Shown here: piece after piece, positions 3,864 to 25,259 of the stretch | Numbering within the stretch: position 1 is the stretch's first letter | How the letters are laid out: each line of letters begins with the position of its first letter | Virus record (IMG/VR): IMGVR_UViG_3300037840_000051 | Span: 1-36,846 of that record | Direction: 5' to 3' (one strand) | Length of the DNA: 36,846 nucleotides | Origin: a virus | Made by a program: the position numbers and the translations under genes | The notes under the pieces: model-generated | Seen by the model: the letters and a program-made list of their open reading frames with translations, nothing else | What the model was told of the DNA's origin: nothing | Database searches by the model: none

Positions 3864-4201
3864 GCCATCACGCAAGCGACCTAGATCCCGAGATGAGGCG
3901 ACAGATCGAAAAGATGCGAGGGCGATACAAGCTCGATCCAGAAGACGGAAAGGTCTGCCGTGAGATCGAAGACGGACCGCCACTCGATCTTGGTCCAACC
4001 GGCAAGTTTCCGCGCGGCAAACTGACTTCGCACGACGAAGGCGAGATTAAGATTGCCGTTGCAGCCGACAAGAAAAACCAGGCGGTCATTATTTCCTTCC
4101 AATCACAAGTGACCTGGATCGGCTTCGATTACGATCAAGCGATGGCCCTATCAGATTCACTCCGCGACAAGGCGAACGAGTTGCGGGGAATCGTGCCATG
4201 A
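3860..4201 (+). CDS. Hypothetical protein
   Basis: A 113-aa protein. The N-terminal half is charged (RRQIEKMRGRYKLDPEDGK) and the C-terminal half alternates strands and one helix (VIISFQSQVTWIGFDYDQA), as in small phage proteins that often lie in early operons. No named family recognised. It overlaps both neighbours by 4 nt. Confidence 0.65.
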   Translation: MSHHASDLDPEMRRQIEKMRGRYKLDPEDGKVCREIEDGPPLDLGPTGKFPRGKLTSHDEGEIKIAVAADKKNQAVIISFQSQVTWIGFDYDQAMALSDSLRDKANELRGIVP

Positions 4202-4662
4202 CCCGCCTTATCCCCCTCCTGATCCTCTGCATCCTCGCCGGCCACTCCCTCGGCTCCGCCGCCGCGCATCGCTACCGCCAGCAGGCGCAGCCATTCGTTC
4301 CACTCCCGGCATGCTCGCTCACCGTGAAGGGCTGCGGCGCTGCCGTGAATGGCAATTGGTGCACCGGCTGGGCGACCGTCGACTGCGCTAGCCACCCTGG
4401 CTCCGGCACCGCTTGCGGTACGGTCTCCGTGACGCTCATGACGTGGCGGCGCGACCCATTCAGTGGCCTTTATGAGTTCTGGGAGGACGACTGCCAGGCC
4501 GAAATGCTCTCGTGCAACGAGGGGCTTTATATCTACACGGCTGAAATCTTCTTGTCGAGCACGTTCGAGTGGCGCACCGAAGTCATCGTTTGCGCGGGCG
4601 ACTGCGAGCCTGGCGGGTGCGCTGTGCCGTTGTGCGACCGGGTTCAATTTTGGGGGGAATAA
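4198..4662 (+). CDS. Secreted cysteine-rich protein
   Basis: A 154-aa protein with a clear signal peptide: MTRLIPLLILCILAGHSLGSAAA, with likely cleavage near residue 23. The mature part has 11 cysteines spaced through about 115 residues (KGCGA, NWCTG, VDCAS, GDCEPGGC), consistent with a disulfide-bonded extracytoplasmic fold. It matches no family I know. A secreted disulfide-rich protein inside a phage early operon is unusual; it could act on the host envelope or on competing phages. That role is speculation. It overlaps the upstream stop by 4 nt. Confidence 0.65.
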   Translation: MTRLIPLLILCILAGHSLGSAAAHRYRQQAQPFVPLPACSLTVKGCGAAVNGNWCTGWATVDCASHPGSGTACGTVSVTLMTWRRDPFSGLYEFWEDDCQAEMLSCNEGLYIYTAEIFLSSTFEWRTEVIVCAGDCEPGGCAVPLCDRVQFWGE

Positions 4663-5319: not shown

Positions 5320-5744
5320 CCCGTCGCACCAACCCCAAGCCGATCGTCATCCCCGAACGTGAAGTCCTCGCGTCATCGATGGCGATCCTGCGCGGGCTAG
5401 GGTGGACGGTGTGGCGGCGAAACGTGGGAATGTTCAAGCTCCCGAACTACGACGGCACGTACAGGACATTCCGAGCCAACGATCCTGGGATGAGCGACCT
5501 GTGGGGCGTCACGTCGAACAAGCGTCACTTTGAGCTTGAGATCAAGCGACACGGTAAGCGGCCCACGGCAAGGCAACTCGAATGGCTCCGAGGCTGGAAC
5601 AACGAGAAGGCCGATCGATTCGTTACGTTCTGGGTCGACAATACTGCGACCCTTGAGCGCGTCGCTCGTCACATCATGGCCGGGGGAAGGATTGAGTACG
5701 TGGGGGAAAAGGGCGATTACGATCTTATCGAGGGCACGCGATGA
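5316..5744 (+). CDS. VRR-NUC / PD-(D/E)XK nuclease
   Basis: A 142-aa protein read from the GTG at 5316 that overlaps the upstream stop. The PD-(D/E)XK core is visible: GMSDLWGV (Asp about 61), then FELEIKRHG (Glu 75 and Lys 77 of the ExK motif), then PTARQLEWL with a Gln near 87. Length and order fit stand-alone VRR-NUC nucleases in phages, which resemble Holliday-junction resolvases and act in recombination or DNA debranching before packaging. The upstream in-frame extension to 4986 is not supported. Confidence 0.85.
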   Translation: MTRRTNPKPIVIPEREVLASSMAILRGLGWTVWRRNVGMFKLPNYDGTYRTFRANDPGMSDLWGVTSNKRHFELEIKRHGKRPTARQLEWLRGWNNEKADRFVTFWVDNTATLERVARHIMAGGRIEYVGEKGDYDLIEGTR

Positions 5745-5989
5745 CCAAGAAGATTCTCCACATGTGCCTGGACGTTCGCGGCGCTCTGAAAAACTTCAGG
5801 CCGAGCGAGTGGGTCGGCTGCTGCACTGACCATGAGACGGGCCGCGTGTTGACGGCCGACGAGATCCATGACGCATTTTGCGACGAGCTAGCCAAGGGGC
5901 ACGAAGTCATTCCCTTCGGCGAAGCGTGCGAGGGATTCGATTATTCCGGCGGCGGTTGTCCGGGCCACGAAGCGCCCGAGAAGGACTGA
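5741..5989 (+). CDS. Small cysteine-rich hypothetical protein
   Basis: An 82-aa protein. It contains five scattered cysteines plus CCTDHETG and a Gly/Cys-rich C-terminus (GGGCPGHEAPEK), suggesting metal binding. I recall similar short phage proteins but no assigned function. The ATGA overlap with the nuclease gene indicates coupling. Confidence 0.6.
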   Translation: MTKKILHMCLDVRGALKNFRPSEWVGCCTDHETGRVLTADEIHDAFCDELAKGHEVIPFGEACEGFDYSGGGCPGHEAPEKD

Positions 5990-6548: not shown

Positions 6549-6923
6549 ATGTCCAAAGGCCACCGATTCAGCTTGGAGCAAATCGCCGAATTCGCCCTGA
6601 AGGCATGGGCCAAGGGCATCTATCCGACCTACGACGCCTGCAACGCCTTGGGCTTGGTCTGCACGTCGGCGCGTTACTACAGCGTCGTCACGCCGAAATG
6701 GAAGGACGACAACGGCATCCCGCACCGGCGCAGCCGCTCGCGAACCACGAACACCGAGATGGGCTACCGCTCCCCCATCGTGTACGCGAAGTCACGGCCA
6801 AAAGAGGAGCCGAAAGAGCCGAAGGTGAGGCGGTTCGGAATAAAACACGAACACATGGAGCGTGAGCTAAGGCTGCGCGTGTGCGGCTTTGGGCCGTTAA
6901 GGGGCGGGCGATGCACTTGCTGA
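6549..6923 (+). CDS. Small protein, paralogue B of the 'YP-Y-AC' pair
   Basis: A 124-aa protein. Residues 5-60 match the gene at 5992 (KGIYPTYDACNALGLVC), which marks a local duplication interrupted by the YkgJ-like gene. The C-terminal half is an Arg/Ser/Lys-rich extension that its paralogue lacks. No family recognised; a DNA- or RNA-binding role is a guess from basic charge. The 3' end overlaps the methyltransferase gene by 13 nt. Confidence 0.65.
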   Translation: MSKGHRFSLEQIAEFALKAWAKGIYPTYDACNALGLVCTSARYYSVVTPKWKDDNGIPHRRSRSRTTNTEMGYRSPIVYAKSRPKEEPKEPKVRRFGIKHEHMERELRLRVCGFGPLRGGRCTC

Positions 6924-7609
6924 TCAAGGGCGATGCCAGGCGCTTGCCGGTCGATCCCAAGGCGATCGATGCGATCGTGAGCGATCCGCCGTACGGAATT
7001 CGATACTCGCCGGGGGGCGGTGGTAGAGGCTGGACTAACGGCGTTAAAACATTCTCGGGAAATAATCTGATTATTAACGACGACAAGCCATTTGATCCTT
7101 CGCTGTGGCTCAACTTTCCCATCGTGGTTTTATGGGGCGCGAATCATTTTGCAGACAAGCTACCGGCTCGCGCGACTTGGTTTGTCTGGGATAAGCGACA
7201 AGACGGACTAACCAATGATTTCGCCGATTGTGAGATGGCTTGGTGCTCAGTCGGCGGACCGGCTCGAATGTTTCGGTATCTGTGGTGTGGAGCTTTCAAA
7301 GCAGGCGAGCACGGCTGGCAGCGTCATCACCCCACTCAAAAGCCCATCGCCCTCATGCGCTGGTGCATCCAGAAACTCAAGCTCAAGCCCAACTCGCTCA
7401 TCCTCGACCCGTACTGCGGCTCGGGCTCAACGGGCATCGCGGCCCTCCAGGAAGGCCATCGCTTCATCGGCATCGACCTTGACGGGAACTATGTCCGGAT
7501 TGCCAAGCGGCGCATAGAACGGCCGCACAGCCACATTCCCCGCCCAGCACGCGAGGAGCATCATCCGTTGTTCGATCGCTTGGAAAGCCCCTCTGAGCCG
7601 CCACATTGA
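6911..7609 (+). CDS. DNA methyltransferase (N6-adenine or N4-cytosine, DPPY type)
   Basis: A 232-aa SAM-dependent DNA methyltransferase. The catalytic DPPY is at residues 25-28, HPTQKP at 140-145 and the SAM-binding DPYCGSGSTG at 166-175. Catalytic before SAM motif is the beta-class order. The target base and site cannot be read from sequence. No cognate restriction enzyme lies next to it, so it is probably an orphan used to mask phage DNA or to regulate it. The ATG at 6911 follows AAGGGGCGGG. It closes the first operon. Confidence 0.9.
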   Translation: MHLLIKGDARRLPVDPKAIDAIVSDPPYGIRYSPGGGGRGWTNGVKTFSGNNLIINDDKPFDPSLWLNFPIVVLWGANHFADKLPARATWFVWDKRQDGLTNDFADCEMAWCSVGGPARMFRYLWCGAFKAGEHGWQRHHPTQKPIALMRWCIQKLKLKPNSLILDPYCGSGSTGIAALQEGHRFIGIDLDGNYVRIAKRRIERPHSHIPRPAREEHHPLFDRLESPSEPPH

Positions 7610-7868
7610 CACAGGAGCGATTCCGAGCGGTGGGTGCGTCTGTTTGATGCTTTCGGCTTTTGCGTCGTTCCTATGGCAAGCCAGACGGCTTAATCGCGTT
7701 AACAAAACTTTACAATCGCCGCTTGGCGTCGCGGAAATCGCCGTTCATAATCATCCTCGCGGACAAAATTTCAGCACCTACTTGACAACGATAGCCATTT
7801 GTGCGCAATCCTATCAGTGTAATCTGCAATGTCTTCCGTTAGTGCCAGGGAATGGATACCGGGGCTGA
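7610..7868 (+). promoter_or_regulatory. Intergenic region with candidate promoter
   Basis: A 259-nt gap, the longest between genes in the window, separates two plus-strand blocks. A perfect -35-like TTGACA lies at 7782-7787. The -10 is weak: GCAATC follows after 17 nt, and TATCAG at 7812-7817 is better in sequence but badly spaced. The short frames through the gap do not look coding; a TTGA start at 7606 dies after 13 codons. The position fits a promoter for the 7869 operon, but the -10 makes the call tentative. Confidence 0.3.
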
Positions 7869-8327
7869 GTGAACGCCAGGCTGAGAGAAGGTGTAATTTG
7901 GCTGGCGCATCGGATAGCCGGGGAATCAACCAAGGCGATAGCGGCCAGGGTTGGCCTTTCTATTCGATCGATCCAGCTCCGTCTCCAGCAAGCCAGGGAA
8001 TGGCTCGGCCCGCTGGAGCGAATGGTCCCGCAATACGACCGGATCGAACTCCTCATGGAAGGCCCGGAGCCAGGGCGATGCGAGCATCGGGTGAGGCGAG
8101 TCCAGGCCGTTTTGAAGGATGGGACTCGCACATACTTATGCCTCTGGTGCAACGAGACGAACAACCCGACCCATCCGGCCTTCCGCCGCGGCGTAGCGAT
8201 CCCTCAGCCGAAGCCGCCGCCAAAGTTCCAACCGAAGCGCCCTCGCCGCAAGGGCGGCGCTTTACCGGCTGGGATGACCTCCGCGAAATCGGCCCGGTTG
8301 TCGAAGATCAAGCCATCGAACCCCTAG
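7869..8327 (+). CDS. HTH DNA-binding protein with CxxC pair
   Basis: A 152-aa protein with a GTG start. Residues 10-48 (GESTKAIAARVGLSIRSIQ) form a helix-turn-helix of the sigma-70 region 4 / LuxR type. A CEHR-x-CLWC arrangement (about residues 70-94) may bind zinc. The C-terminus is Pro/Lys/Arg-rich. It is the first gene after the gap, so it may regulate later genes; that is an inference from position. Frame choice over the competing 7829 frame rests on the HTH. Confidence 0.65.
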   Translation: MNARLREGVIWLAHRIAGESTKAIAARVGLSIRSIQLRLQQAREWLGPLERMVPQYDRIELLMEGPEPGRCEHRVRRVQAVLKDGTRTYLCLWCNETNNPTHPAFRRGVAIPQPKPPPKFQPKRPRRKGGALPAGMTSAKSARLSKIKPSNP

Positions 8328-8353
8328 ACCGCCGCTACCCCTGGGACCTGATC

Positions 8354-8416
8354 GTGTGGCTGTTTGTGTGCGGGGTGGTTGTTACCGCCGTGCTCGTGTG
8401 GAGATTTTTGGGATGA
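8354..8416 (+). CDS. Possible tiny membrane peptide, start uncertain
   Basis: The frame ending at 8416 encodes a hydrophobic span (IVWLFVCGVVVTAVLVW) and its stop overlaps the next ATG (ATGA at 8413), the habitual junction here. No good start exists close to the span. GTG at 8354 gives 20 residues; an ATG at 8138 gives 92 residues but overlaps the HTH gene for 190 nt. I think a membrane peptide is encoded, but its N-terminus is unresolved. Confidence 0.35.
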   Translation: MWLFVCGVVVTAVLVWRFLG

Positions 8417-8682
8417 CGAATCGCCGCACCTTCCTGACCCGCCTTGCCGCTCTCGCCGCGGCGCCGTTTGTCATGCTGGAAAGCGGCGTGCGGAAAGTGT
8501 GCGGTAAGCCGAAGGTAAAGCCGCCCGTTATCGTGGCGTCGGCTTTCGGTAACTCGTTTTCCAACAATACGATCATCTGCGAAGACGGGTCGATTTGGTC
8601 TGGCGATCCGGGAATGAAACTTCCGCACGGCTACACGATGACGCAGGTGGTCTGCTACATGCCACCGAGGGTCAAAAAGTGA
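8413..8682 (+). CDS. Small exported protein with Tat-like signal
   Basis: An 89-aa protein. It starts [18 protein letters not shown], a twin-arginine (RRxFL) motif followed by a moderately hydrophobic Ala/Leu stretch, the hallmark of Tat export in bacteria. The mature part (about 60 residues, with [18 protein letters not shown]) is unrecognised. Tat signals normally mark proteins that fold before export, which is odd for so short a phage product. It overlaps its neighbours by 4 nt (ATGA, GTGA) and lies directly before the secreted protease. Confidence 0.6.
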
Positions 8683-9965
8683 ACGGACTCCTCCTCGCCT
8701 TCGCCTTGCTCTCCCAATGCTCAGGCGGTTCGTGCCCGGCGCCGATCTTCCAAAGATCCGCGCCAATCGTTCAGGGTGGCTGGCGCAGCGATCATTCCGC
8801 TGGCGTGGCGTACATCCCGTATAACGCTCAGCGGCGCCCCGTGGCGACGGCGGAATACATGGGGGCCAGCGAAGTACCGGCAGGGAAGTACCAGGCTCTC
8901 AGCGTCGAGGTGAATACCCGAAACGGAAGTGTCGTGACCTATGGCTCCGGTACAATTGTGCGGACTCTGGATAATCGGGCTCTCGTGCTTACTGTGGCTC
9001 ACGGACTTGATCCGGGATCTACGATCGAAGTGATCCACGATGGAACCAGGTTTCCAGGAAGGCTCGTTGCTCGTGCTGACACGGGTATTCCTCCGGCATC
9101 ATACGACCTCGCAGCCGTCGAAATCGCCACGCCAGTAGCCGTGCGGCAAATGGCCATCGCCGACGGCGCCAAGTCGGGGCAGATGTGGGAGCTTGTGGTT
9201 GCGGACGCGCCCGCACCGGCGGTCAAGATGTACGGCTATGGAGGCTCAAATGGCATCGGACGGCGACCGCTCATGTCGAAGCGAGGGGCCTTCCGCGGAG
9301 TCTGGGGCAGCTTCGCAACCTACACCCTTCGGCCGTGGCTGGGTGACAGTGGCGGCGGGGCTTGGAGCTCCAGCGGCGAATTCGCTGGCGTTCTATCCGC
9401 TCGCGACGGTGGTAATCTGCGATCGACTACAGAGGGTTACTTGGTCTCTCCTGTAGCCTGTCAAGCGTTCCTTGCCACCCAGCCCTGCTGCTTCGGCCGG
9501 CTCTTCGCACGCAGACCCAACGTGATCGTGAACGTCAACGGCGGTGGGGGAGTCATCCCTCAGCCGGGGCCGGTGATGCAAGGCCCTCCAGGCCCAATGG
9601 GACCATCCGGGCCACCTGGGCAGTCAATCCAAGGGCCAGCGGGGAACGACGGCCAGCCGGGGCCAGTGGGCGCAACAGGGCCACCGGGGGCAACTGGTGC
9701 GCAAGGCCCTCCAGGCCCAGCAGGCAATCCCGCGCCGCCAACACCACCGCCGGCTCTCAAGATCGTCATGGCCGACCCCAACGGAATCCCCCTCGCGGAG
9801 AAGATTTACCATCCGGTTTTCGACGCCGCAACGGGCGAAATGCAATACAAGGTTTTGATGACCCCAGACACGATTCTCCACCCATCGCCGAGTTCCCCGA
9901 ACACCAAGGTTCAGGGATCTCGGCCGCTCAACGCAACTCCTCCTCCACCAGCTCCGCACCGATGA
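8679..9965 (+). CDS. Secreted trypsin-like serine protease with collagen-like tail
   Basis: A 428-aa protein with a GTG start overlapping the upstream stop. Residues 1-16 form a short signal-like hydrophobic segment ([13 protein letters not shown]). The protease domain has the chymotrypsin-fold triad: TVAHG (His 108), YDLAAVEI (Asp 143) and GDSGGG (Ser 224). Residues about 302-349 are Gly-X-Y repeats with one break near 314-319, rich in GPP/GAQ, a collagen-like triple-helix signature. A proline-rich C-terminal part follows. The protein is probably exported or virion-attached and trimeric through the collagen segment. The substrate is unknown. An extracellular protease on a phage could cleave host surface proteins or process virion parts. 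Confidence 0.8.
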
Positions 9966-9978
9966 AAGAAGGCTCTCC

Positions 9979-10365
9979 GTGGCTACCCTGGCCGACGACG
10001 CGATCAACACTCAGGGCATCAACCGCATGCTGGATCAAGGGACCAGCACGGCCCAAATGTTCAACCAGCAGATGCTTCGCATGAACGCCGACGATCAATC
10101 CGACGCAGTCGACGCGCGGCGAACGCACAAGTCAACGACCCAGCTCATCACCTACCTCGGAGCACAAGGATTCTTGGGTGAGGCACCCGTCCAGGCAGCG
10201 GCAACTCTGGCCTATCGCGCTATCCGCGATCAGCCCCAGACAACCGGACAGCAGACAAGCGCTCCCCCTTATGTTGTCCCAACTCCTGGGTACGGCAACG
10301 GGGGCGGATCAAGCTCCGTTTATGTCTACAATCCCACTACTGGCACCATCACCAAGGGCGGCTAA
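9979..10365 (+). CDS. Hypothetical protein, Ala/Gln/Gly-rich
   Basis: A 128-aa protein with a GTG start at 9979 preceded by AAGAAGG at 6-nt spacing. The N-terminal 75 residues are helical with many Gln/Met/Asn (TAQMFNQQMLRM); the C-terminus is a flexible Pro/Gly/Ser/Tyr segment. No signal peptide and no recognised family. The next gene has a strong Shine-Dalgarno sequence (AAGGAGG) that overlaps this stop. Confidence 0.6.
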   Translation: MATLADDAINTQGINRMLDQGTSTAQMFNQQMLRMNADDQSDAVDARRTHKSTTQLITYLGAQGFLGEAPVQAAATLAYRAIRDQPQTTGQQTSAPPYVVPTPGYGNGGGSSSVYVYNPTTGTITKGG

Positions 10366-10375
10366 GGAGGCTAGT

Positions 10376-10597
10376 GTGGAGGGACAATGGGTAGTCGTGC
10401 CGCCTGGGAGCGACTTAAAAGTTGGTGGGGGCGCCGCTCTCGTATACGTGCTGCCAGTGGCAATCCCTACCGTGGTTCCGGTGCCGCCAACGCCACCAGC
10501 AACAGTTTCCCCGATGGTAACGTCCCAGCTTCAAGCGGGGCCGGTTCGGGTTCACCCCGAAAGCACCGTGACAGCTCAATTGATCCCGCCAAGCTGA
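10376..10597 (+). CDS. Hypothetical Val/Pro-rich small protein
   Basis: A 73-aa frame starting at GTG 10376, 5 nt after the best Shine-Dalgarno in the window (AAGGAGG, 10364-10370). The product (EGQWVVVPPGSDLKVGGGA, then a V/P/T-rich stretch) is protein-like but unrecognised. It overlaps the N-terminal part of the 10387 frame almost completely. Its TGA at 10595 forms CTGA with a possible CTG start for the next gene. One of the two overlapping readings may be spurious; the ribosome-binding site favours this one. Confidence 0.45.
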   Translation: MEGQWVVVPPGSDLKVGGGAALVYVLPVAIPTVVPVPPTPPATVSPMVTSQLQAGPVRVHPESTVTAQLIPPS

Positions 10598-11157
10598 CCC
10601 TGCAATGGATCGCCGAACACGCAGAGCAGAAGCCACGCGAAGTTGACGAGACGATCCGGGACATTGTCGAGCTTGAGTATTTCAACGGCCTACAGAAGCA
10701 ACGACAGCTCCAAAGCAGAATCGAGAAGCAGCAAGCGACTGGCATGGCAGCTCTGATGGAGCACCACTTGAACGGGACCAATCCGAGCATGCCATCGGCG
10801 ACGACGCCAACCACGGCGGCCAATACCTCGACGGCCCTTGAAGATGACCAGGCCATCCACAACCGATGCAACTGGATCAACCACAACTACTACCAGGACG
10901 CACCGCGGGAGGAGATCCGGGAGGACATCGACAAGAGGCCGCAACCGCCGCCTCAACCTTCACCGGCTCCTCAGAGCAGCGGTGTCCCCGGCTGGGTCTG
11001 GATCGTCGTGCTCCTGGCAATCATGACGCTCATGGCCCTTGCAGCCCTCTGGTACGCACTTACGCATCCATCGCCCGTTGTAACCCCGCCAGGCCCTCCA
11101 GTGGTGATTCCGGCTGAGAACGCTTACACGACGATCAAGCTGGGGGATGCACCGTGA
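10387..11157 (+). CDS. Single-span membrane protein with coiled region; N-terminus uncertain
   Basis: A 256-aa frame from ATG 10387. From about residue 68 the product is convincingly coding: a helical segment (LTLQWIAEHAEQKPREVDET), a Gln-rich region, a Pro-rich linker and a transmembrane helix (about 202-225, GWVWIVVLLAIMTLMALAAL), then a short Pro-rich outer part. Residues 1-67 are Arg/Ser/Gly-rich and may be an out-of-frame shadow of the 10376 gene. If so, the start could be a rare CTG at 10594 overlapping that gene's stop. Function unknown. Confidence 0.6.
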   Translation: MGSRAAWERLKSWWGRRSRIRAASGNPYRGSGAANATSNSFPDGNVPASSGAGSGSPRKHRDSSIDPAKLTLQWIAEHAEQKPREVDETIRDIVELEYFNGLQKQRQLQSRIEKQQATGMAALMEHHLNGTNPSMPSATTPTTAANTSTALEDDQAIHNRCNWINHNYYQDAPREEIREDIDKRPQPPPQPSPAPQSSGVPGWVWIVVLLAIMTLMALAALWYALTHPSPVVTPPGPPVVIPAENAYTTIKLGDAP

Positions 11158-11303
11158 TGGCTTGGATGAGCGGCCAAGATTTCACCTGGTTCTGGTGCGG
11201 CATTGTCACTGGATGGCTGCTTTGCGGAGTTTGGCGGCTCACGATTGATTTGGTGGTTAAGGACCGGCTGAAGGCGATTGAGGAGCAGCAAGAACAGAGG
11301 TGA
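11154..11303 (+). CDS. Small membrane protein (49 aa)
   Basis: The start is GTG 11154, overlapping the upstream stop, or the adjacent ATG 11157. One hydrophobic, Trp-rich span (FTWFWCGIVTGWLLCGVW) is followed by a charged C-terminal helix (KDRLKAIEEQQEQR). The layout resembles small phage membrane proteins such as holins or spanin partners, but with only one span and no lysis enzyme nearby I do not assign that role. Confidence 0.55.
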   Translation: MMAWMSGQDFTWFWCGIVTGWLLCGVWRLTIDLVVKDRLKAIEEQQEQR

Positions 11304-11309
11304 GCGCGG

Positions 11310-11435
11310 ATGTTGCACACAGCATGGCGGCTGATCGACAACCTCAAGCATTTCGCCCAATGGCTCGGAGTGATTTACATCTTGGTGTGTCTCGGGATGA
11401 CATCGGAACCCAAACAGAAGGATCGCCACAAATGA
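11310..11435 (+). CDS. Small membrane-associated protein (41 aa)
   Basis: ATG at 11310, with AGAGGTGAG in front. It has an amphipathic N-terminus, a short hydrophobic stretch (WLGVIYILVCLGM) and a charged tail (EPKQKDRHK). It ends in ATGA with the following secreted-protein gene, which supports it as a real coupled gene. Function unknown. Confidence 0.5.
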   Translation: MLHTAWRLIDNLKHFAQWLGVIYILVCLGMTSEPKQKDRHK

Positions 11436-12046
11436 AACGGATTGCCCTCTACTTTGCAGCATGGTCCCTCTTCGCCGCGTGGTCAGTCGGCGCGGCGCTC
11501 GGAAACGAGTTTACCGATGCACTCAATGCCCAACGGCAAGCTAGGGGCCTCGGGCCAGTGGCTTTTGATCAGGTACTTATCCCAACCTCTGCCAACAACA
11601 ACGCATGGCAACGCCTCAAGGGCCTCGGGCACTGGGATACGGGCGGCTTTGCTCAAGTATCAGCCATTGGGACCGGTGATATCTCCGGTACTCTTGCGGC
11701 TTGGTCGTGGTCAGCAGCCCACGCAGCCCTCCTCTACAGCCCCAACCTCGCCAGCGTCGGTTACGCAAACGACGGCTACTGCGCCACCGCAACGCTCGTG
11801 ATGGGGCAACATCGCGTCGTGACCTCGACTCCTCAAGCTCCAACGAAGGCTACTCCCCAATCCACCCACCCCGCGGCGCCGAGCAAGGGCCAGCCGTCGG
11901 CTGAGTACCACGGTTGCACGCAAACCGCCGCGGGGTGCGGCGCGTCCACCGGCGCCTGCCTGGGTCCTGGCGGTAGTGGAGCCCGGGCGCCGGCGCGTTA
12001 CAGGCAGTGCGGGTTTCATCCCTTCAGGCGATTGTTTGGCCACTAA
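11432..12046 (+). CDS. Secreted CAP (SCP/PR-1-like) domain protein
   Basis: A 204-aa protein from the ATG at 11432 (ATGA overlap). A signal peptide (KRIALYFAAWSLFAAWSVGAALG) precedes a CAP-like domain: FTDALNAQRQARGLGPVAFD (27-46), GHW (66-68), AAWSWSAAHAALLYSPNLAS (89-108) and a strand near 110-124. His 67 and His 97 match two conserved CAP histidines, while Gln 75 stands where bacterial members usually have Glu. The C-terminal 70 residues are Pro/Thr- and Cys-rich. The function of bacterial CAP proteins is mostly unknown. It sits next to the protease and membrane genes. The frame from 11300 lacks the signal-peptide position and is rejected. Confidence 0.65.
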   Translation: MKRIALYFAAWSLFAAWSVGAALGNEFTDALNAQRQARGLGPVAFDQVLIPTSANNNAWQRLKGLGHWDTGGFAQVSAIGTGDISGTLAAWSWSAAHAALLYSPNLASVGYANDGYCATATLVMGQHRVVTSTPQAPTKATPQSTHPAAPSKGQPSAEYHGCTQTAAGCGASTGACLGPGGSGARAPARYRQCGFHPFRRLFGH

Positions 12047-13509: not shown

Positions 13510-13682
13510 TGACCAAGCCCATCAAACTCACGCCGCACCAAGAGCGCCCGCTCCGAGCCAGCGACAAGGAAGAGCGCGAGCGCCGCCAAGGCGACAAGGG
13601 CGGCTCACTACCGGCGGGGTGGAGTAGCATGGGACCTGGGAAGCGACGGAAGTCAGCTCACAAGCACGGGCACGGGGATTGA
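13509..13682 (+). CDS. Small basic protein ending at the first junction repeat
   Basis: A 57-aa, strongly basic, disordered protein (ASDKEERERRQGDKGGSLPA). Its last codons and stop lie inside the 19-bp junction repeat, giving the C-terminus HGHGD. GTG 13506 is an equally possible start (GTGATG). A nucleic-acid-binding role is possible from charge only. Confidence 0.5.
   Translation: MTKPIKLTPHQERPLRASDKEERERRQGDKGGSLPAGWSSMGPGKRRKSAHKHGHGD
13664..13682 (+). repeat. 19-bp gene-junction repeat, copy 1
   Basis: GCACGGGCACGGGGATTGA lies at the 3' end of one gene and directly before the next ATG. Copies 2 and 3 are at 14076-14094 (identical) and 14296-14314 (one substitution). Each supplies a stop codon for the upstream frame and sits immediately before, or overlaps, the next start. 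Confidence 0.9.
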
Positions 13683-13683
13683 G

Positions 13684-14094
13684 ATGGCTGATCAGCTTGT
13701 GCAGGAAGGCGATATCATCCTCTTGGAAAAAGGGCACGGAGTTTACACGGAACTCCCGATGCACCTGGTCTATGAGAACAGGGTTGGCGTGTGGGACAAG
13801 ATGACAAATGCCGAAGTCGCGATAGGCAGCCATCGAAAGTTCAACACGGATTATCTTGCGGGCAAATACATAGTGGTCAAAACGAATTGCGATGGTGGCG
13901 GAAGTCAACTAGAGATGAATGGCGGTCACTCGCACTTTCCAAATGGTCATCACGTGTGGGCTGAAAAGATAGACAATCCATTGATCAAAGTTCACTTTTA
14001 CCAGTCCGGTAGTTTTACCGTCGTGAATCCTACTGTTCAGATAGTCGGGAAAGCCGAGAGAACGTGGGCAGTGATGCACGGGCACGGGGATTGA
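13684..14094 (+). CDS. Hypothetical protein between junction repeats
   Basis: A 136-aa protein, mostly beta-strand in appearance (DIILLEKGHGVYTELPMHL). It has a His/Asn/Gly patch (MNGGHSHFPNGHHVWAEK) that could bind metal. No family recognised. It is bounded on both sides by copies of the 19-bp repeat and again ends in HGHGD, which suggests it is a mobile cassette. Confidence 0.6.
   Translation: MADQLVQEGDIILLEKGHGVYTELPMHLVYENRVGVWDKMTNAEVAIGSHRKFNTDYLAGKYIVVKTNCDGGGSQLEMNGGHSHFPNGHHVWAEKIDNPLIKVHFYQSGSFTVVNPTVQIVGKAERTWAVMHGHGD
14076..14094 (+). repeat. 19-bp gene-junction repeat, copy 2
   Basis: Exact second copy of GCACGGGCACGGGGATTGA. Its final A is also the first base of the ATG that starts the gene at 14094. 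Confidence 0.9.
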
Positions 14095-14295: not shown

Positions 14296-14314
14296 GCACG
14301 GGCATGGGGATTGA
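14296..14314 (+). repeat. 19-bp gene-junction repeat, copy 3 (one mismatch)
   Basis: GCACGGGCATGGGGATTGA differs from copies 1 and 2 at one base. An ATG just in front (14294) would encode only MHGHGD and stop, so this copy looks like a bare junction left after loss or exchange of a cassette. Confidence 0.85.
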
Positions 14315-14730
14315 TGCCAGTCGACCACATCATTACTTGGCCTGAAGTGGCTCAAGAGTTGATCCGCGAGGTCCCCAACTACATCGCGGCCGTCGGCGCC
14401 CTCCTCGCGGCTTACCTGGCACGACAAGCGGTGGTCCAGGGGAAAGAGTTGCATTTGACCATGAATTCGCGGCTCTCCCAGCTCATCGCAGCGACAGCGG
14501 CCAGCTCCCACGCCGAAGGGATGATCGAAGGGGCCAAGGGTGGCCGAGCGGCCAGCATTGTGGAGTTTGATGCGAGGGAATCCAAGGCAGCATCATCGGA
14601 CTCATCGCTCACGCCGACGCCTGTAACCGTGGTCAATCCTGAGCCGGTGCCAGTTGTCGTGAGCGAGCCGGAGTTGAAGCACAAGAAGGGGCCGGTTCAC
14701 CGGCAAAACGAAGTGCGCGGGGAGGACTAA
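14314..14730 (+). CDS. Single-span membrane protein, holin-like family
   Basis: A 138-aa protein. A predicted membrane helix (about residues 22-40, NYIAAVGALLAAYLARQAVV) is followed by KELHLTMNSRLSQLIAATAA and then a Pro/Val-rich charged tail. From memory, the 'H-x2-N-S-R-x-x-x-L' segment after a membrane span recurs in small phage membrane proteins that are often annotated as holin-like. No endolysin is next to it, so the lytic role stays unproven. The ATG at 14314 shares its A with the third junction repeat. Confidence 0.6.
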   Translation: MPVDHIITWPEVAQELIREVPNYIAAVGALLAAYLARQAVVQGKELHLTMNSRLSQLIAATAASSHAEGMIEGAKGGRAASIVEFDARESKAASSDSSLTPTPVTVVNPEPVPVVVSEPELKHKKGPVHRQNEVRGED

Positions 14731-14733
14731 GCC

Positions 14734-14883
14734 ATGCCGATGGGAATCTTGTTCTGGATTATTTTGATCCTGTGCATCATCGCTGTCATCTTCGGCTCAG
14801 CATGGCCCCTCGCAAGCTGGGGCATTCTGCTCGTGCTGTTGTTCCTTCTTGGCTGGAAGGTATTCGGGCCACCGCTGCAATGA
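14734..14883 (+). CDS. Two-span small membrane protein (49 aa)
   Basis: ATG at 14734. The product is hydrophobic almost throughout, with two spans (LFWIILILCIIAVIFGSA and LASWGILLVLLFLLGW) joined by a short turn. It follows the holin-like gene by 3 nt and overlaps the next gene by ATGA. Size and topology would fit a small two-span holin, but that is inference. Confidence 0.6.
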   Translation: MPMGILFWIILILCIIAVIFGSAWPLASWGILLVLLFLLGWKVFGPPLQ

Positions 14884-15918: not shown

Positions 15919-16428
15919 ATGGCTCATCCGAACAGTTTGGCCAATCTGATTCAGTTCCAACCGGGGCCAGATGCCCGCCGAAGCAGGAAGGGAAAAGGCA
16001 AGTCCCTCACCAGGCTCATCAAGGAAGCGTTGCGCAAGCAAAAGCTATGCGGATCGATGATACCAGAGGGAAAGGATGCCGCAGAGTTTCTTGCCGAAGC
16101 GATCGTGGGCCACGCCATCAAGGGCAACGCACCTTACATGACTCAGGTAATGGATCGCATGGAAGGCAAGATTGGCGTTGAGGACGAAGCGGTCAATCGA
16201 ATCGAAACGAAACCCGTAATTTACATCCCCGATGATGGAAGAGATCCGACCGCAGTCAGGGCCACAAGAAGCGTTCCTGTCGACAAGTGCGGACATAGCG
16301 ATTTACGGGGGAGCAGCGGGGGGCGGAAAGACGTGGGCTCTCCTGATCAATCCCCTCCGCCACATCAAAACGGCCAGGGGTTACGGGGCGGTGATTTTTC
16401 GGCGAACGGTGCCGGAGATCACCAATGA
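15919..16428 (+). CDS. Small-terminase-like protein
   Basis: A 169-aa frame. Residues 1-110 (KGKGKSLTRLIKEALRKQ, then DAAEFLAEAIVGHAIKGNAP and MTQVMDRMEGKIG) match the layout of DUF5681-like proteins that precede large terminase and act as small terminase subunits or DNA-recognition factors. The last ~65 residues lie in a 197-nt out-of-frame overlap with terminase; they are Gly/Ser/Arg-rich and look like a read-on shadow. So either the gene truly overlaps, or a frameshift fuses it to terminase. The ATG at 15919 has GAGAG upstream. Confidence 0.65.
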   Translation: MAHPNSLANLIQFQPGPDARRSRKGKGKSLTRLIKEALRKQKLCGSMIPEGKDAAEFLAEAIVGHAIKGNAPYMTQVMDRMEGKIGVEDEAVNRIETKPVIYIPDDGRDPTAVRATRSVPVDKCGHSDLRGSSGGRKDVGSPDQSPPPHQNGQGLRGGDFSANGAGDHQ

Positions 16429-17689
16429 AGGTGGCTTGTGGGATGAGGCTTGCGAGCTTTACCCGATCCTCGATGGAGTCAGCTATAGCGGAACGCATGA
16501 GTTCCGATTCCCACCGTACGCCAACACCGTCAGCATGGCCGGGCTTGAGAATGAGCAAGACGTTCTCAAGTGGCACTCCAGCCAAATCTGTTGTCTTGAA
16601 TTCGATGAGCTTACCACCTTCTCGGCTCGACAGTTCTGGTATCTCACTAGCCGCAATCGCTCGGTCTGTGGCATTCGGCCAACGATTCGAGCAGGCTGCA
16701 ATCCATCGCCAGGGTGGCTCAAGACGACCCTTCTCGCCCCTTGGGTTGATGAGAATTACGACGGACCTCGGGCCAAGGGTGGCGAGCTTCGATCCTTCAT
16801 CCGCCTTGAGGGAGAGATCAAGTGGGTCGAGCATGGCTACCCTGATTCGCAAACGGTCACATTCATTCCCGCCAGGGTCACAGACAACAAGATCCTCCTC
16901 AAGAAGAATCCGGGCTACCTCGCCAAGCTCAAGGCGCTTGATCCGGTCGAGCAGGCTCGGTTCTTGCATGGCGATTGGCGTGTCCGCTATGAGGGCGTTG
17001 TCTATCCCGAGGCGTTTGATCCGGAGTTCGGCGTCATCGTTGAAAGCGAAGGCAACAGACGTCAAGAGCCCGAGATCGGTGGGATGGACTTCGGGGTCAG
17101 AAACGCCTTTGTCGCTCTGTGGGGCTACGTCGACCACGATGGCGTACTGTGGATAACAGGATGCTACTACTCACGCGGCAAGACGATTCCCCAGCACAGC
17201 CCAAATCTGCCGAAGGTGCGTTGGTCGGCAGACCCAGCGGGCCTCCAGGAAATCTTGCTGCTGAAAGGCGCCGGCCACGACATCCGCTCTTGCGTCCACA
17301 TTCCGATGCGAGGGGCAACAGGGGAAACCAAGAATCCAAAGTCGGCCGGCATCAGCATGGTTCGGGAACGGATGAGAACGGGGCGGCTCAGGATTGTTCG
17401 GCCAAAGTGCCTGGACTTAGTGCGAGAGTTAGGGCTCTATGCCTACGACGCGACAAAGCCTGAAAACGAAGAACCGCTCAAGCAAGACGACCACTCGCCT
17501 GACGCGCTGCGCTACCTCGTTGTGGGGCTCGATCGTGGCCGGGCTGTGCCGTCTCTGGTCCAGCCTGAAACGGATGCTGAAAGGGCTGAGCGAGAGAAGG
17601 CCGAAGCTGCCATCGAGGTTTCTCGACGCAAAGAGCTGGATGCCGCGTTCCAATCCGACATCATGAACGAGCATTGGTGGGAAACGTGA
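16232..17689 (+). CDS. terL: Large terminase subunit (ATPase/nuclease)
   Basis: A 485-aa protein of usual TerL length. The N-terminal ATPase has Walker A GGAAGGGKT (26-34), Walker B ICCLEFDE (119-126, with Asp 125 and Glu 126) and the AGCNPSP coupling motif (154-160). The C-terminal RNase H-fold nuclease has GGMDFG (Asp 286), SADP (Asp 334) and DDHSPDALRY (Asp 420/424 region). It cuts and pumps phage DNA into the prohead at the portal vertex. ATG 16232 or 16235 both fit the family's N-terminus (RPQSGPQEAF). It overlaps the TerS-like gene by 197 nt and the next gene by GTGA. Confidence 0.95.
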   Translation: MMEEIRPQSGPQEAFLSTSADIAIYGGAAGGGKTWALLINPLRHIKTARGYGAVIFRRTVPEITNEGGLWDEACELYPILDGVSYSGTHEFRFPPYANTVSMAGLENEQDVLKWHSSQICCLEFDELTTFSARQFWYLTSRNRSVCGIRPTIRAGCNPSPGWLKTTLLAPWVDENYDGPRAKGGELRSFIRLEGEIKWVEHGYPDSQTVTFIPARVTDNKILLKKNPGYLAKLKALDPVEQARFLHGDWRVRYEGVVYPEAFDPEFGVIVESEGNRRQEPEIGGMDFGVRNAFVALWGYVDHDGVLWITGCYYSRGKTIPQHSPNLPKVRWSADPAGLQEILLLKGAGHDIRSCVHIPMRGATGETKNPKSAGISMVRERMRTGRLRIVRPKCLDLVRELGLYAYDATKPENEEPLKQDDHSPDALRYLVVGLDRGRAVPSLVQPETDAERAEREKAEAAIEVSRRKELDAAFQSDIMNEHWWET

Positions 17690-17931: not shown

Positions 17932-18365
17932 TAGTGCTGCAATGGTTCTTGATTGCGGCTGGCTTCTATTTGTGGCTCGTTGGGCTGGATCGCGTATGCC
18001 GCGGAGCAAAGCAGAATGAGGCGCCGAAGGTTTCGCAACCGATCGCGGTTCCCTTAACAGATGAAGGCTTGAGAGTTCGCCAGCAAGTCCTTGCGAGCCT
18101 TGAGCCACTGTTTGCTGAAGCTAGAGCGAAGGGGCTGTGGTTCCACTCCTGCTACCAGGATATGTGGTTCTCGCCTGACGAACTGGCCGAAATGCATCGC
18201 CAAGATCGGTTCATCTGGGGTCCGGTGAACTGGACGCTCCGCAATCCTCGTGGAATGCCACTTGGATCGAACCGGCCGACGACAGCGCCAACGGCAGAAC
18301 AAATTGCCAAAGCTATCTGGAATGATTCTTACGAGTACGTACGGCCTAGGACAGTAGAGCGTTAG
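17928..18365 (+). CDS. Membrane-anchored hypothetical protein
   Basis: A 145-aa protein from GTG 17928. Residues 2-22 are an N-terminal membrane anchor (VLQWFLIAAGFYLWLVGLD). The soluble remainder has KGLWFHSCYQDMWFSPDELA and a Trp/Pro-rich segment. Unrecognised. It lies between terminase and portal, ends 1 nt into the portal start, and is odd there because head genes rarely encode membrane proteins. Confidence 0.6.
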   Translation: MIVLQWFLIAAGFYLWLVGLDRVCRGAKQNEAPKVSQPIAVPLTDEGLRVRQQVLASLEPLFAEARAKGLWFHSCYQDMWFSPDELAEMHRQDRFIWGPVNWTLRNPRGMPLGSNRPTTAPTAEQIAKAIWNDSYEYVRPRTVER

Positions 18366-19990
18366 TGCCTGACTTCAACGCCATCACGAAGCGCCTCAAG
18401 GGCAACAAGGAGGACATCCAGCCACCGGGCCATTTCAGCTTCGGCACACAGCTTTACGGCGGGCCACGGTATACCGATGCGTTTGGAGTCAAGCCGGGGC
18501 CGTCGCTCACTCAACTCGTAGAGAATTACCATGCTCTCATCTACGCAATGGTGGCTCGGAACAGAAATGCCGTTGCCAGGCTACCCATGCGGTTACTCGC
18601 GGACGGTAGCAGAGCGCAGGGTAAGCCAAGCCGAGCTTGTGACCCTATTAAGGTCTCTCGGGCTGTCGGAATACGACTTGCAGAATCTGGTGCGATCTCT
18701 TCAGCAGCCGTCGACCAAGTCTATGAAATTAGAAATCACCCTTTGCTCGATGTCCTCGATAGCCCCGACCCATACGGAACCTTCACCCGAGAAAAGCTGA
18801 TCGGCCTGATGGTCTCCTACATGGACGTGATCGGCAGCGCTTTCTTGGTCCCTGAAGGCAACGGCTGGGACTGGCGGATCACGGACAAGCCCATCCGTCC
18901 CAAGGGCCCGCCTGATTACCTCTGGGTGATCTACCCGCAGTACACCATCCCGGTTCGCTTGCCAGCGTCGCCGATCGTGGATCACTTCCGCTACTTCGCG
19001 GACAAGCTCCCATACGACGCGGTGATCTGGCTCAGGCACAACCACTCGCTTCGAGACGCTTATGGCGCGTCGTTCTCGCCCACGTATGCTGGTGAGCCTT
19101 ACCGCAAACAGGAGCAAGAGCAAATTGCGATACTCTCCCAGGTGCTCGGAATCGGTCCACGACCGAACTTCGTTATCTCCGCTAAAGATCCGCTCATGCC
19201 CCCAGGGCGCGATGAAGCCGAGGCGCTTAAACAGGATCTCATTCGCCAACACAGTGCAGGCATGGCTGGCGGTGTACTCATCAATACGGGTGCATGGGAC
19301 TGGAACCCCATCAGCTACAGCCCAGCCGACCTTGCCGGTAACGAGGTAGGAAAGCAGGATTGCACATATCTTGCAGCTATTTTCGATCAGCCCCCAACCT
19401 ACTATACGGTGGAGTCGAATCTCGCCAACCTTGAGGCGGCCGACAAGCAACATGACGTCCAGGGTGTACAGCCGAGATGCCGCACCATCGAGGGGGCATT
19501 CACGGCACTGGCGCGGCGCTTCGATCCGCGGCTCTCGTTCAAGTTTGATGCTGGGCTCAGGGATGATGAGCTTGAGAAAGCTCAGATAGATAAAATCTAC
19601 GTCGACATGGGCGCTATCACCCTCAACCAATTGAACCAAGAGAAACAGTATCCGCCTGTCGAATGGGGCGATGAGCCGATGTTTCCCACCACGATGCTTC
19701 CCTATTCGATGCTTGTGGAGAAGCACGAGCAAGGGCTTGAGCAAGCCAAGGCGGCGGTCAGCAGTATGGGCACCAAGGATGATCTAGCCATTGAGGGCCA
19801 AGACCACAAGATCGGCCTGGAGAAGAAAGGCCAGGACCACCAGATCAAAATGGATAAGGCCGGGCATGATCTGGAGAAGAAGAAAGCCGCCCAAGCCGCC
19901 AAGGAGAAGCAAGAGCGAGCGCTCATGGACCTCGCGGAAGGCGTGCTCAGAGATGTGGCGAGTCAGCTTGAGGTGATGAAGGCAGGATGA
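18365..19990 (+). CDS. Portal protein (HK97-type)
   Basis: A 541-aa protein with a GTG start sharing a base with the upstream TAG. It shows the portal core: an N-terminal region with LTQLVENYHALIYAMVARNR, a central LWVIYPQYTIPVR, and the conserved second half (HNHSLRDAYGASFSPTYAGE, IEGAFTALARRFDPRL, NQEKQYPPVEWGDEP). The last ~85 residues are an extra Lys/Glu/Gln-rich coiled coil with GQDHKI/GQDHQI repeats. The portal dodecamer forms the DNA gate at one capsid vertex and binds terminase. Position after TerL fits exactly. Confidence 0.9.
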   Translation: MPDFNAITKRLKGNKEDIQPPGHFSFGTQLYGGPRYTDAFGVKPGPSLTQLVENYHALIYAMVARNRNAVARLPMRLLADGSRAQGKPSRACDPIKVSRAVGIRLAESGAISSAAVDQVYEIRNHPLLDVLDSPDPYGTFTREKLIGLMVSYMDVIGSAFLVPEGNGWDWRITDKPIRPKGPPDYLWVIYPQYTIPVRLPASPIVDHFRYFADKLPYDAVIWLRHNHSLRDAYGASFSPTYAGEPYRKQEQEQIAILSQVLGIGPRPNFVISAKDPLMPPGRDEAEALKQDLIRQHSAGMAGGVLINTGAWDWNPISYSPADLAGNEVGKQDCTYLAAIFDQPPTYYTVESNLANLEAADKQHDVQGVQPRCRTIEGAFTALARRFDPRLSFKFDAGLRDDELEKAQIDKIYVDMGAITLNQLNQEKQYPPVEWGDEPMFPTTMLPYSMLVEKHEQGLEQAKAAVSSMGTKDDLAIEGQDHKIGLEKKGQDHQIKMDKAGHDLEKKKAAQAAKEKQERALMDLAEGVLRDVASQLEVMKAG

Positions 19991-22162: not shown

Positions 22163-22637
22163 ATGGCGCGGCCCGCAGGTGCTCGATGAGATCGAGCAGC
22201 GCGTGAACGCCAACATGATCGCCATTGGGCGACAGGTTGTTCAGATCGGCCAGCGTTACGCGCCTAAGAAAACGGGCCGTCTCGCGATGGGAATGACCTT
22301 CGATTACAACCTCTCGACCCACACGCTCGTCTTCGTTGGCGAAGCACCTTATGACATCTTTGTGGAGTACGGCACGAGGAATCAACGGCCCCAACCGCAC
22401 TGGCGGCCGGCGCTCAACACGGTTGGCTCGATCTACGGCATCAACCTCGAACTCGCCTTTGCCAACGTGCCGTACATCCATGCTCCGGTTCTCGCTCAGG
22501 GTGCCAAGTTCCACGTGCCGTCAACGCTGACCGCCAAGCAACGCCAGCACGTCAAGGAGCATTTGGTTCCCGCGAGCCAACGCCATTTCATCGGCAACGT
22601 CAGCCGCACCAAGATGCACATCAGGAAGCACTTCTAA
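22152..22637 (+). CDS. HK97-gp10-like neck/tail-completion protein
   Basis: A 161-aa protein from GTG 22152. The family signature is visible: RYAPKKTGRLAMGMTFDYN (the 'APxxTGxL' segment, about 34-52), then DIFVEYGTRNQRPQPHWRPA, which corresponds to the 'YVEYGT...QPFLRPA' part of HK97 gp10 proteins. These connect head and tail. Usually this gene follows the capsid gene; here it precedes the protease, so the module order is rearranged. The C-terminus is His/Lys-rich. Confidence 0.75.
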   Translation: MPVEWRGPQVLDEIEQRVNANMIAIGRQVVQIGQRYAPKKTGRLAMGMTFDYNLSTHTLVFVGEAPYDIFVEYGTRNQRPQPHWRPALNTVGSIYGINLELAFANVPYIHAPVLAQGAKFHVPSTLTAKQRQHVKEHLVPASQRHFIGNVSRTKMHIRKHF

Positions 22638-23587
22638 TGGACACCATCCTTAGAGCCTTCGAGGCCCAGATTGATAGCGTCCTCGACGGCGAGCGGGCCG
22701 TGGTGGCGAGAATCAACACGTCGGGCGTAGATCGGCTCAGGACGGTGATTGACCCATTGGGCGCCGATGTCAGCCATTTCAATAAGACAAGAAGCGTCCT
22801 CTGGCAACATGGCCAAGACCCTATCCGCGGTACGGTCCCCATCGGGCATGGCTGGGCCAAGGTGCGACGCAGCGAGGGTGACATCCTGGGTAAGACGACC
22901 TTTGCCAAGGATGCTTTTTCCGATCAGCTCTTCCAAGGCTATCAGGACGAATCGATCCGTGGGTGGAGTATCAAGGCCGGCATTCATGAGGCAACCCCGC
23001 CGACCAAGGAAGAAATCAGGCGCCGGCCTGAGCTAGCCGACTGCGACGTGATTTACCGCAAGTGGGATCTCATCGAGCTATCGGCAACACCGACGCCGGG
23101 AAACAGCGATTGTCTCACCTTGCTTGTCAGCCGCGGGCTCATTACGCCGCCTGATGGCTGGGTAGCACCCGAGCGCACCATGACCGAATCCTTGGGTGGC
23201 ATGGCCACGGGCGGCGCGGCAACGCGCTACGTCACCGGCTCAGGCGACGAATGGACGGTACACGCCGAAGACGGCAAGGTTTTAGGCAAGCACAAGAGCA
23301 AGGCCGACGCCGAGAAACAACTCGCCGCCATCGAGGCCCATAAGCACGAACACGAGCGCTGGGTTGACGGCGATGGCTCGTGGTTTCATGTGACCGAGCC
23401 GACCGGACAGCGTCTCGTTGCGTTTCGCAGCATGGCTGATGCCGAGGATTGCATCCGCGCCATGCGGAATCCTAACTCATTCGAGCAAGTTCTGATGAAT
23501 GTTCACACCGCACAGCGGGCTCGGTTTGAAGCACAAAAAGACGATCTGCTCGCCGAGATCCAGTTACGCCGATGGGGCGTAGTTTGA
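22637..23587 (+). CDS. Prohead (capsid maturation) protease, S78-like
   Basis: A 316-aa protein. The N-terminal ~170 residues carry the HK97-type protease pattern: SVLWQHGQDPIRGTVPIG (His 58), SIRGWSIKAG, and the nucleophile in DLIELSATPTPGN (Ser 149). This enzyme cleaves capsid and scaffold during prohead maturation. The C-terminal extension has WTVHAEDGKVLGKHKSKADA and QLAAIEAHK, a motif I recall in other phage proteins where its function is unknown. The ATG shares a base with the upstream TAA. Confidence 0.85.
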   Translation: MDTILRAFEAQIDSVLDGERAVVARINTSGVDRLRTVIDPLGADVSHFNKTRSVLWQHGQDPIRGTVPIGHGWAKVRRSEGDILGKTTFAKDAFSDQLFQGYQDESIRGWSIKAGIHEATPPTKEEIRRRPELADCDVIYRKWDLIELSATPTPGNSDCLTLLVSRGLITPPDGWVAPERTMTESLGGMATGGAATRYVTGSGDEWTVHAEDGKVLGKHKSKADAEKQLAAIEAHKHEHERWVDGDGSWFHVTEPTGQRLVAFRSMADAEDCIRAMRNPNSFEQVLMNVHTAQRARFEAQKDDLLAEIQLRRWGVV

Positions 23588-23723: not shown

Positions 23724-25259
23724 ATGAGTGCTGATACGACGACCTTTGTCGAGTTCACGGCCGACGTGGGCTCGTGGAAGGTTGGCCATATCGAAGCCCT
23801 CAAGCCAAGTGTGGCAAGGGGCTTGATCGAGGCCAACCAGGCCAAAGAGAGTGATTCGCTCGCATACATGCGGGCCTCCCTCGATTCGGCGACTAACAAA
23901 CAGTTTGCCGAGTTGAAGGAAGAAATTCGGTCCATGCTCAAGCCGCCGGGCAGCAAGGGACCGCCCAACGGCGGCGGCGGGGTTGATTTCAACAAGATCA
24001 GCGCCGGCACCAGTTCTGTTGATCGCAGCACGGACGGTAAGGAACATCAACGCAGCTTCGGCGAGTTCTGCCAGATGGTGGCGCTTGCTCAGGGCGTTGA
24101 TACCGATTACCAGCTCCGGGTGCTGGCCACGCAAAAGCTCCGCGATCGGTACGGTGCCGAGAAGTGCCAGTACCAGATCAACGAGACGACCGGCGTGATC
24201 GAACAGACGGTGACTCGCACGCTGAATTACGGCGTCGAGACCATCACGCGGTCAGGCACGGAATCGCTCGGCGGCGGGCCTACCTATGGCTTTTCCTTGA
24301 AGCCTGAGTACATGGCCACGCTGTTCGAGATCCCGATGGAACAATCGGTGTTCGCCGAGGCTACCTTCGGCGTCCCGATGGGCAACGCCTTGGAGCTTCG
24401 CTGGCCAGCAATGGATCAGTACAAGCCGCCCACCACGGTCAACGGCATCAAACAATCCGCCGTCTTCGCCGGGTTCACTCTCGGTTACGTCGGCGAGACG
24501 ACAGCGCGGCCAACCTCGGATGGTGCGTTGTCTGACATTACGTTCAAGATCGTGGACCTGACCGGGTTCACCGACATGTCACGCGATCTGCTCTCGGACA
24601 ACTACATCGCAATGGACGCGATGGCCACGAGAGTCTTTGGGCGGGCGTTCAAATGGATGGAAGATTATATGGGGATCAATGGGAGTGGCCAAGGCCAGCC
24701 CGAAGGATTCCTCAGTAGCAAAGCCATCCTGGGCTATGACCGCGGCACGGCGTCGCACATCTACTACGCCGACCTGGTGAACATGCAACAGCTCTTCCAT
24801 CCGGCCTGCTGGGCCGGCGGAAGGTGGATCGCACATATTACCACGCTGACCGAACTCCAGGCGATCCAGGTTAGCGCCGGTGTGTATGTCTACCAACCCA
24901 ATGCACTGATCAGCCAGGCCATGCAGCCTTCTATCATCGGCCAGAGCAGCTATTCGGGTGGCGAGAAAATCTATCGCCCGATGGGAACGATGCTTGGCTG
25001 GCCGGTGTACTTCAGTGAGAAGGTGCCAACCCTCGGCAACACGGGCGACCTCAGCTTGGTTTGCCCTGATCAGTATGGCTATGCACGGCGAGCGGGGCTC
25101 GAAGTAGGGCTCTCCGAGCATTTCTACTTCAGCACTGACCGGATCGCCTTCAGGTTCAAACAGCGGCATGACGGCAAGTCGCTGTGGCGTGCGCCTTACA
25201 CCCAAGCGGACGGCACGCAGCTCGTTTCGCCGTTCGTTACTCTGCTGGTCCATACCTGA
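23724..25259 (+). CDS. Major capsid protein (HK97 fold)
   Basis: A 511-aa protein. Residues 1-70 contain a short beta part (FVEFTADVGSWKVGHIEALK) and a helix (NKQFAELKEEIRSMLK); a disordered Gly-rich linker precedes the core. The core has RSFGEFCQMVALAQG, the GGGPTYGFSLKPEYMATLFE strand-helix, an LTGFTDMSRDLLSDNYIAMD spine-type region and a P-domain-like C-terminus with IYRPMGTMLGWPVYFSEK. This is the usual layout of HK97-fold capsid proteins, with an N-terminal region that may serve as the scaffold cut by the preceding protease. Position right after the protease supports the call. Confidence 0.9.
   Translation: MSADTTTFVEFTADVGSWKVGHIEALKPSVARGLIEANQAKESDSLAYMRASLDSATNKQFAELKEEIRSMLKPPGSKGPPNGGGGVDFNKISAGTSSVDRSTDGKEHQRSFGEFCQMVALAQGVDTDYQLRVLATQKLRDRYGAEKCQYQINETTGVIEQTVTRTLNYGVETITRSGTESLGGGPTYGFSLKPEYMATLFEIPMEQSVFAEATFGVPMGNALELRWPAMDQYKPPTTVNGIKQSAVFAGFTLGYVGETTARPTSDGALSDITFKIVDLTGFTDMSRDLLSDNYIAMDAMATRVFGRAFKWMEDYMGINGSGQGQPEGFLSSKAILGYDRGTASHIYYADLVNMQQLFHPACWAGGRWIAHITTLTELQAIQVSAGVYVYQPNALISQAMQPSIIGQSSYSGGEKIYRPMGTMLGWPVYFSEKVPTLGNTGDLSLVCPDQYGYARRAGLEVGLSEHFYFSTDRIAFRFKQRHDGKSLWRAPYTQADGTQLVSPFVTLLVHT

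Follow-up and report, generated by a model that had tools for sequence, protein, structure and literature searches.

In lambdoid phages, the late operon runs from a regulator through an enzyme, the endolysin, and small membrane proteins to TerS, TerL and the portal. For planctomycete phages, no paper on lysis was found in the open literature. The planctomycete envelope itself was long described as proteinaceous, until several species were shown to contain peptidoglycan (PMC4432640). The window analysed here is the whole IMG/VR virus record IMGVR_UViG_3300037840_000051 (36,846 bases), with nearly all of its genes on the plus strand. The locus in question is a tight operon of eight called genes at 8.34-12.05 kb, hereafter the block, which encodes among others a trypsin-like serine protease with a collagen-like stalk and a protein with a CAP domain. 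It is tentatively read as a late envelope or lysis cassette in lambda order, built around the stalked protease and a CAP protein taken from the host, with a confidence that falls a little short of even.

The protease (8679..9965, +; 428 aa) consisted of an export leader, a trypsin-like domain, a collagen-like stalk and a small C-terminal segment. The Trypsin_2 domain (PF13365; aa 89-238, 8943..9392, +) scored 33.9 bits (E 6.2e-8) against a cut-off of 27.6, and its His-Asp-Ser triad was intact and in order at H108, D143 and S224, the last within GDSGG. The Collagen model (PF01391) was also matched above its cut-off of 27.2 (29.0 bits, E 8.8e-7). The Gly-X-Y repeats occupied aa 302-351 (9582..9731, +) as 5 + 11 triplets by in-frame count, and the longest uninterrupted run of 11 triplets was reached in 0 of 20,000 shuffles, which gave a maximum of 8. 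These results bear out the secreted trypsin-like protease with Gly-X-Y repeats that had been proposed from the letters of the sequence (the original prediction). The leader of the protease was common to L199 and to the related genome G8 (15983-16315). The QCxGGxC leader thus stood on proteins from three phages (window 8679-8745, G8 15983, L199 1498) whose bodies are unrelated to one another, which fits an export signal. The nearest planctomycete relatives of the protease were thioredoxin-trypsin fusions with just ~28-32% identity. A tblastn search of cultured phages with the protease found no match, and Trypsin_2 was not found in ten related contigs. AlphaFold on single sequences, with no alignment, gave pLDDT values of 38 for the protease and 40 for the CAP protein, and neither model was usable; the fold assignments of both proteins rest on sequence profiles and motifs. 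A role as prohead protease was rejected, as a separate head-protease-like gene was present at 22637-23587; matches to the head protease family PF04586 were present in relatives and prophages.

The CAP gene (11432..12046, +) encodes a secreted protein of 204 aa with an Isosphaeraceae-type CAP domain at aa 29-112, assigned by alignment with Isosphaeraceae homologues. The predicted secreted CAP protein was supported by these homologues (identity up to 46%, E down to 6e-10) and missed by Pfam, where PF00188 gave 15.0 bits (E 0.047), under the cut-off of 21.1. Homologues were present in 37 of 45 Isosphaeraceae genomes and a match in 3 of 294 genomes phylum-wide, a contrast that is somewhat inflated since all candidates were scored in Isosphaeraceae and few per genome in the wider search. 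A portal profile built from the window and its relatives matched prophages in 5 of the 45 Isosphaeraceae genomes (E down to 5e-79). It gave weaker matches in 8 of 392 Planctomycetota and none among 289 Verrucomicrobiota, with the same inequality in candidates scored. From the CAP family membership, the host of the window phage is probably a member of Isosphaeraceae (Planctomycetota), a soil planctomycete. The CAP homologue in L172 was surrounded by ordinary chromosomal genes, and for this reason the window CAP gene was apparently acquired from a host.

The genes of the block were closely coupled over 3.7 kb, as had been predicted, with start/stop overlaps at four junctions (ATGA 8413-8416, GTGA 8679-8682, TGATG 11155-11159 and ATGA 11432-11435) and remaining gaps of 13, 21 and 6 nt. 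By hydropathy, six of the eight were membrane or secreted-like, an enrichment over the 15 of 51 in the genome as a whole (hypergeometric p 0.005). As the leader of the CAP protein fell slightly under the threshold, the exported or membrane count is 6-7 of 8. The expected membrane proteins were confirmed by hydropathy at 10387..11157 (+; 256 aa, a single membrane segment near the C-terminus at 2.6, short Pro-rich tail), 11157..11303 (+; 48 aa, single span) and 11310..11435 (+; 41 aa, ATGA overlap with the CAP gene). An ORF at 10376-10597 overlaps the first of these in another frame, and the reading frame used there is ambiguous. The 89-aa protein at 8413..8682 (+) probably has a Tat signal: the NRRTFLT motif agrees with the proposed Tat-signal protein, while TIGR01409 gave 15.2 bits, under its cut-off of 16.7. 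The membrane peptide placed at 8354 was reduced to a C-terminal membrane segment (8354..8416, +), which makes up the final 20 residues of an ORF at 7829-8416; this ORF has an uncertain start and overlaps the helix-turn-helix (HTH) ORF at 7869-8327 in another frame, but it is arguably translated because of its ATGA junction with the next gene. Not all genes of the block point outward as had been stated, since the 128-aa protein at 9979..10365 (+) was without a signal or membrane segment in family scans and hydropathy.

Related IMG/VR contigs were retrieved with the portal (18365..19990, +; phrog_2662 E 1.5e-27) as query. Direct IMG/VR scans with the protease, CAP and TerL retrieved nothing, and a portal-pattern scan of genome contigs found none, which is a limit of the patterns, since the profile search of Isosphaeraceae found prophages. 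On the left, the slot that holds the block is bordered by the HTH protein (7869..8327, +), with a sigma-70 region 4-like N-terminus (PF08281, 23.4 bits, cut-off 25.7) and a C-terminal KFxPK motif; its counterparts by position were at 470-808 in the related genome G9 and 13596-14036 in G8, their similarity to the window HTH being judged by eye alone. The right border is a TerS-like protein (15919..16428, +) with homologues before TerL in L001, L002 and L004, followed by TerL (16232..17689, +; phrog_979 E 4e-67). The first ~197 nt of TerL also encode, in another frame, the end of the TerS-like ORF, and this arrangement recurs in L001 and L004.

Between the HTH gene and TerS, each relative carried the same kind of genes. 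The slot of G9 held a signal-peptide Pro-rich protein, a papain-like enzyme and then a series of small membrane proteins. G8 had a pair homologous to that of G9; next came a protein whose leader, MITLFASLLIGQCAGGVC, closely resembles that of the window protease, and a long tail-like gene separated the cassette from TerL. L002 had many membrane proteins, one of them homologous to G9, together with a second papain-like protein that ends in a Pro-rich tail. The Isosphaeraceae prophages G443, G444 and G416 showed a membrane protein, the papain-like enzyme, 3-5 small membrane proteins, TerS where called, TerL and portal. The enzyme was 39-55% identical over five genomes (G8, G9, G443, G444 and G416), and in the relatives it had no signal peptide of its own. 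A 42-kb contig of an unrelated phage, binned with Isosphaeraceae, encoded a membrane-anchored Cys-His protein and then a leader of the shared type on an otherwise unrelated body. The three prophage clusters (L212-L217) contained TerS, TerL, portal, head protease, capsid and tail genes, with no integrase or replication genes seen and with ~23 kb in G444; they are taken to be decayed prophages or gene-transfer-agent-like elements. The 42-kb phage contig 107 of G425 (L201-L203), from an Isosphaeraceae bin, encoded an Acb2/Tad1 hairpin protein (PF24729, E 3.3e-16), possibly a counter-defence protein. A short ORF at L011:12696-12890 starts with PRLESLEGRLCL, which presumably resembles the planctomycete LEPR-xLL motif; NCBIfam gave no match and did not confirm it.

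A scan with the papain-like alignment showed the family in at least 205 IMG/VR contigs, some above 200 kb; 80 of these matches were kept, with motif counts covering 76 genes and neighbour counts 33 distinct loci. The Gln-x4-Cys pair was kept in 75 of 76 genes and the His in all 76, with NSWG in 56 and QSWG in 14, residues that by their order are the papain constellation (Gln-Cys-His-Asn/Gln). Pfam, its C1 model included, and PHROGs did not recognise the members tested, no member was found in cultured phages, and a PDB search with the family profile gave no relevant match. Immediate neighbours of the papain-like gene were membrane or secreted-like in 42 of 59 cases compared with 31 of 211 among genes further away (p 2.7e-16). 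By a count made with five seeds, a TerL-like gene lay downstream in at least 14 of the 27 loci whose contig extends far enough to show it, and none was found upstream. The downstream TerLs were of several types, two of which, different from one another, match annotated terminases. On an unrelated contig, L255, a trypsin-like protease that is secreted and has its triad complete (AAH, NDAAL, GDSGG) lay close upstream of the papain-like gene, with two genes between them; with the window, this places a secreted trypsin-like protease in the cassette more than once. L255 also carried a secreted thioredoxin-like protein (6777-7169) behind the region of the papain-like gene and, beside that gene, a membrane protein with histidine motifs (5337-5870), which we take to resemble CarF/plasmalogen desaturase.

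The position of the slot between regulator and terminase fits a phage lysis cassette if the regulator acts late, as we infer. Lysis is the leading reading because of this lambda-like position and because no peptidoglycan hydrolase was recognised: Pfam families of such hydrolases were absent from the scanned proteins of the window, G8, G9, G425 and the three prophages, a scan that reached only some of the largest tail genes. Under this reading, the protease on its collagen-like stalk would be exported together with the Tat-type protein and the CAP protein captured from an Isosphaeraceae host. The membrane peptides would weaken the inner membrane late in infection, the protease would cut protein layers in the envelope of the planctomycete, and the CAP protein might compete with the host CAP or bind at its site of action; the combined action would open the cell and release the progeny. 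The wider proposal, that a widespread group of uncultured phages, planctomycete ones included, open their hosts by a proteolytic cassette (the papain-like enzyme with membrane proteins, and in some phages a secreted trypsin-like protease) instead of a peptidoglycan endolysin, the window being a variant with the enzyme replaced by the stalked serine protease and captured CAP, is put forward with more reserve, as somewhat unlikely.

Several points weigh against lysis. None of the block proteins had a homologue in the related phages, so the expected co-occurrence of the block did not hold; of the common envelope-directed purpose that had been proposed, the conserved place and kind of protein before TerS-TerL-portal stood, while the block itself was not conserved. 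A function shared by the cassettes of the window and the relatives would be argued from position and composition, the proteins being non-homologous. The window, G8 and G9 contigs are possibly incomplete and the scan covered only part of the largest tail genes, so that an endolysin could be missed. On the jumbo-size contig L252, the papain-like gene was without membrane neighbours. Planctomycetes tested so far have lysozyme-sensitive peptidoglycan, with Isosphaeraceae not among the species tested (PMC4432640), and for this reason a protease alone might not lyse planctomycetes. Proteolysis may depend on a further partner that escaped recognition, or the role of the cassette may lie in exclusion.

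Lysis was not among the roles first suggested for the block; host-surface change and superinfection exclusion were. According to this explanation, the proteins would be exported early or midway in infection, the protease would trim surface receptors and the CAP protein would mask or replace a host protein, so that other phages could not adsorb. A secreted enzyme and a captured host surface-type protein suit such a role, which needs no structural function, and the relative G8 encodes a superinfection immunity protein (PF14373, E 1.1e-17; L012:3161-3475, -), though on the opposite strand before TerL and outside the slot. However, PF14373 was not matched in the window, the slot adjoins late packaging genes, and the papain-like member is shared by phages of very different kinds, more like a core function, which makes exclusion or surface remodelling rather unlikely. 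The block could also be a set of loosely linked accessory genes (morons) for soil life, whose exported proteins help the infected cell or share no purpose; this is unlikely. The lack of conservation of any block protein in the relatives agrees with it, and homologues of the protease and CAP do occur singly in planctomycete chromosomes, a scatter named beforehand as evidence against a common purpose, yet the genes are tightly coupled and the same kind of cassette recurs at the same place. A virion-borne cell-wall or receptor-processing kit with the repeats as a trimeric fibre, the least likely of the three roles originally proposed, is very improbable: collagen-like repeats are typical of tail fibres and PHROG tail-fibre families match the repeat part only, but the leaders would export the proteins, exported proteins are not assembled into a particle in the cytoplasm, the block lies ~14 kb from the tail genes (26-37 kb), and a leader shared by unrelated bodies in other phages fits an export signal.

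The gene order of the window was replication genes, a DNA methyltransferase (6911-7609), the HTH protein, the block, small genes, TerS/TerL and portal, and 3' of the portal a neck gene, the head protease-like gene, the major capsid gene (23724-25259) and tail-like genes that continue beyond the end of the record. Further downstream in the same slot were a probable membrane protein of the NSRL type (14314..14730, +), called by eye with hydropathy below the threshold, and a two-span holin-like membrane protein of 49 aa (14734..14883, +; hydropathy 3.0 and 2.1). The block was also considered as a tail-fibre locus, which was rejected on position and export leaders. A Cys-rich protein with a signal-like N-terminus was seen in the early region (4198-4662), and downstream of the head genes lay a glycosyltransferase-like gene (26226-27155), whose homologues in G8, G9, L001 and L005 are placed likewise.

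If the lysis reading is true, the protease-based cassettes that precede the terminase of many uncultured phages would offer a new exit route from planctomycete cells, and the papain-like family would be a sequence handle for finding such phages. Among known systems, the window protease resembles the S1 trypsin-like peptidases by its Trypsin_2 domain and triad and differs from them by its collagen-like stalk and phage location. The Gly-X-Y repeats are shared with phage collagen-like tail fibres (e.g. phrog_366), whereas here they are attached to an exported protease without any other tail-fibre domain. The window CAP has the N-x-x-R, NN, GH, W...S-x-x-H and GxA positions of the Isosphaeraceae branch of the CAP superfamily, but does not keep the host ARRQN segment and, unlike a typical PF00188 match, scores below the Pfam cut-off. 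In the enzyme of the relatives, Gln, Cys, His and Asn/Gln follow one another as in the papain-like cysteine peptidases (PF00112, clan CA), with SWG; however, its profile comparison with C1 was weak and the family is absent from the window. Finally, as in the lambdoid cassette (S-R-Rz/Rz1 before Nu1-A), an enzyme and small membrane proteins lie between a regulator and TerS-TerL-portal, whereas the enzyme here is trypsin-like, and papain-like in the relatives, in place of a recognised peptidoglycan hydrolase, with holin and spanin roles that are putative.

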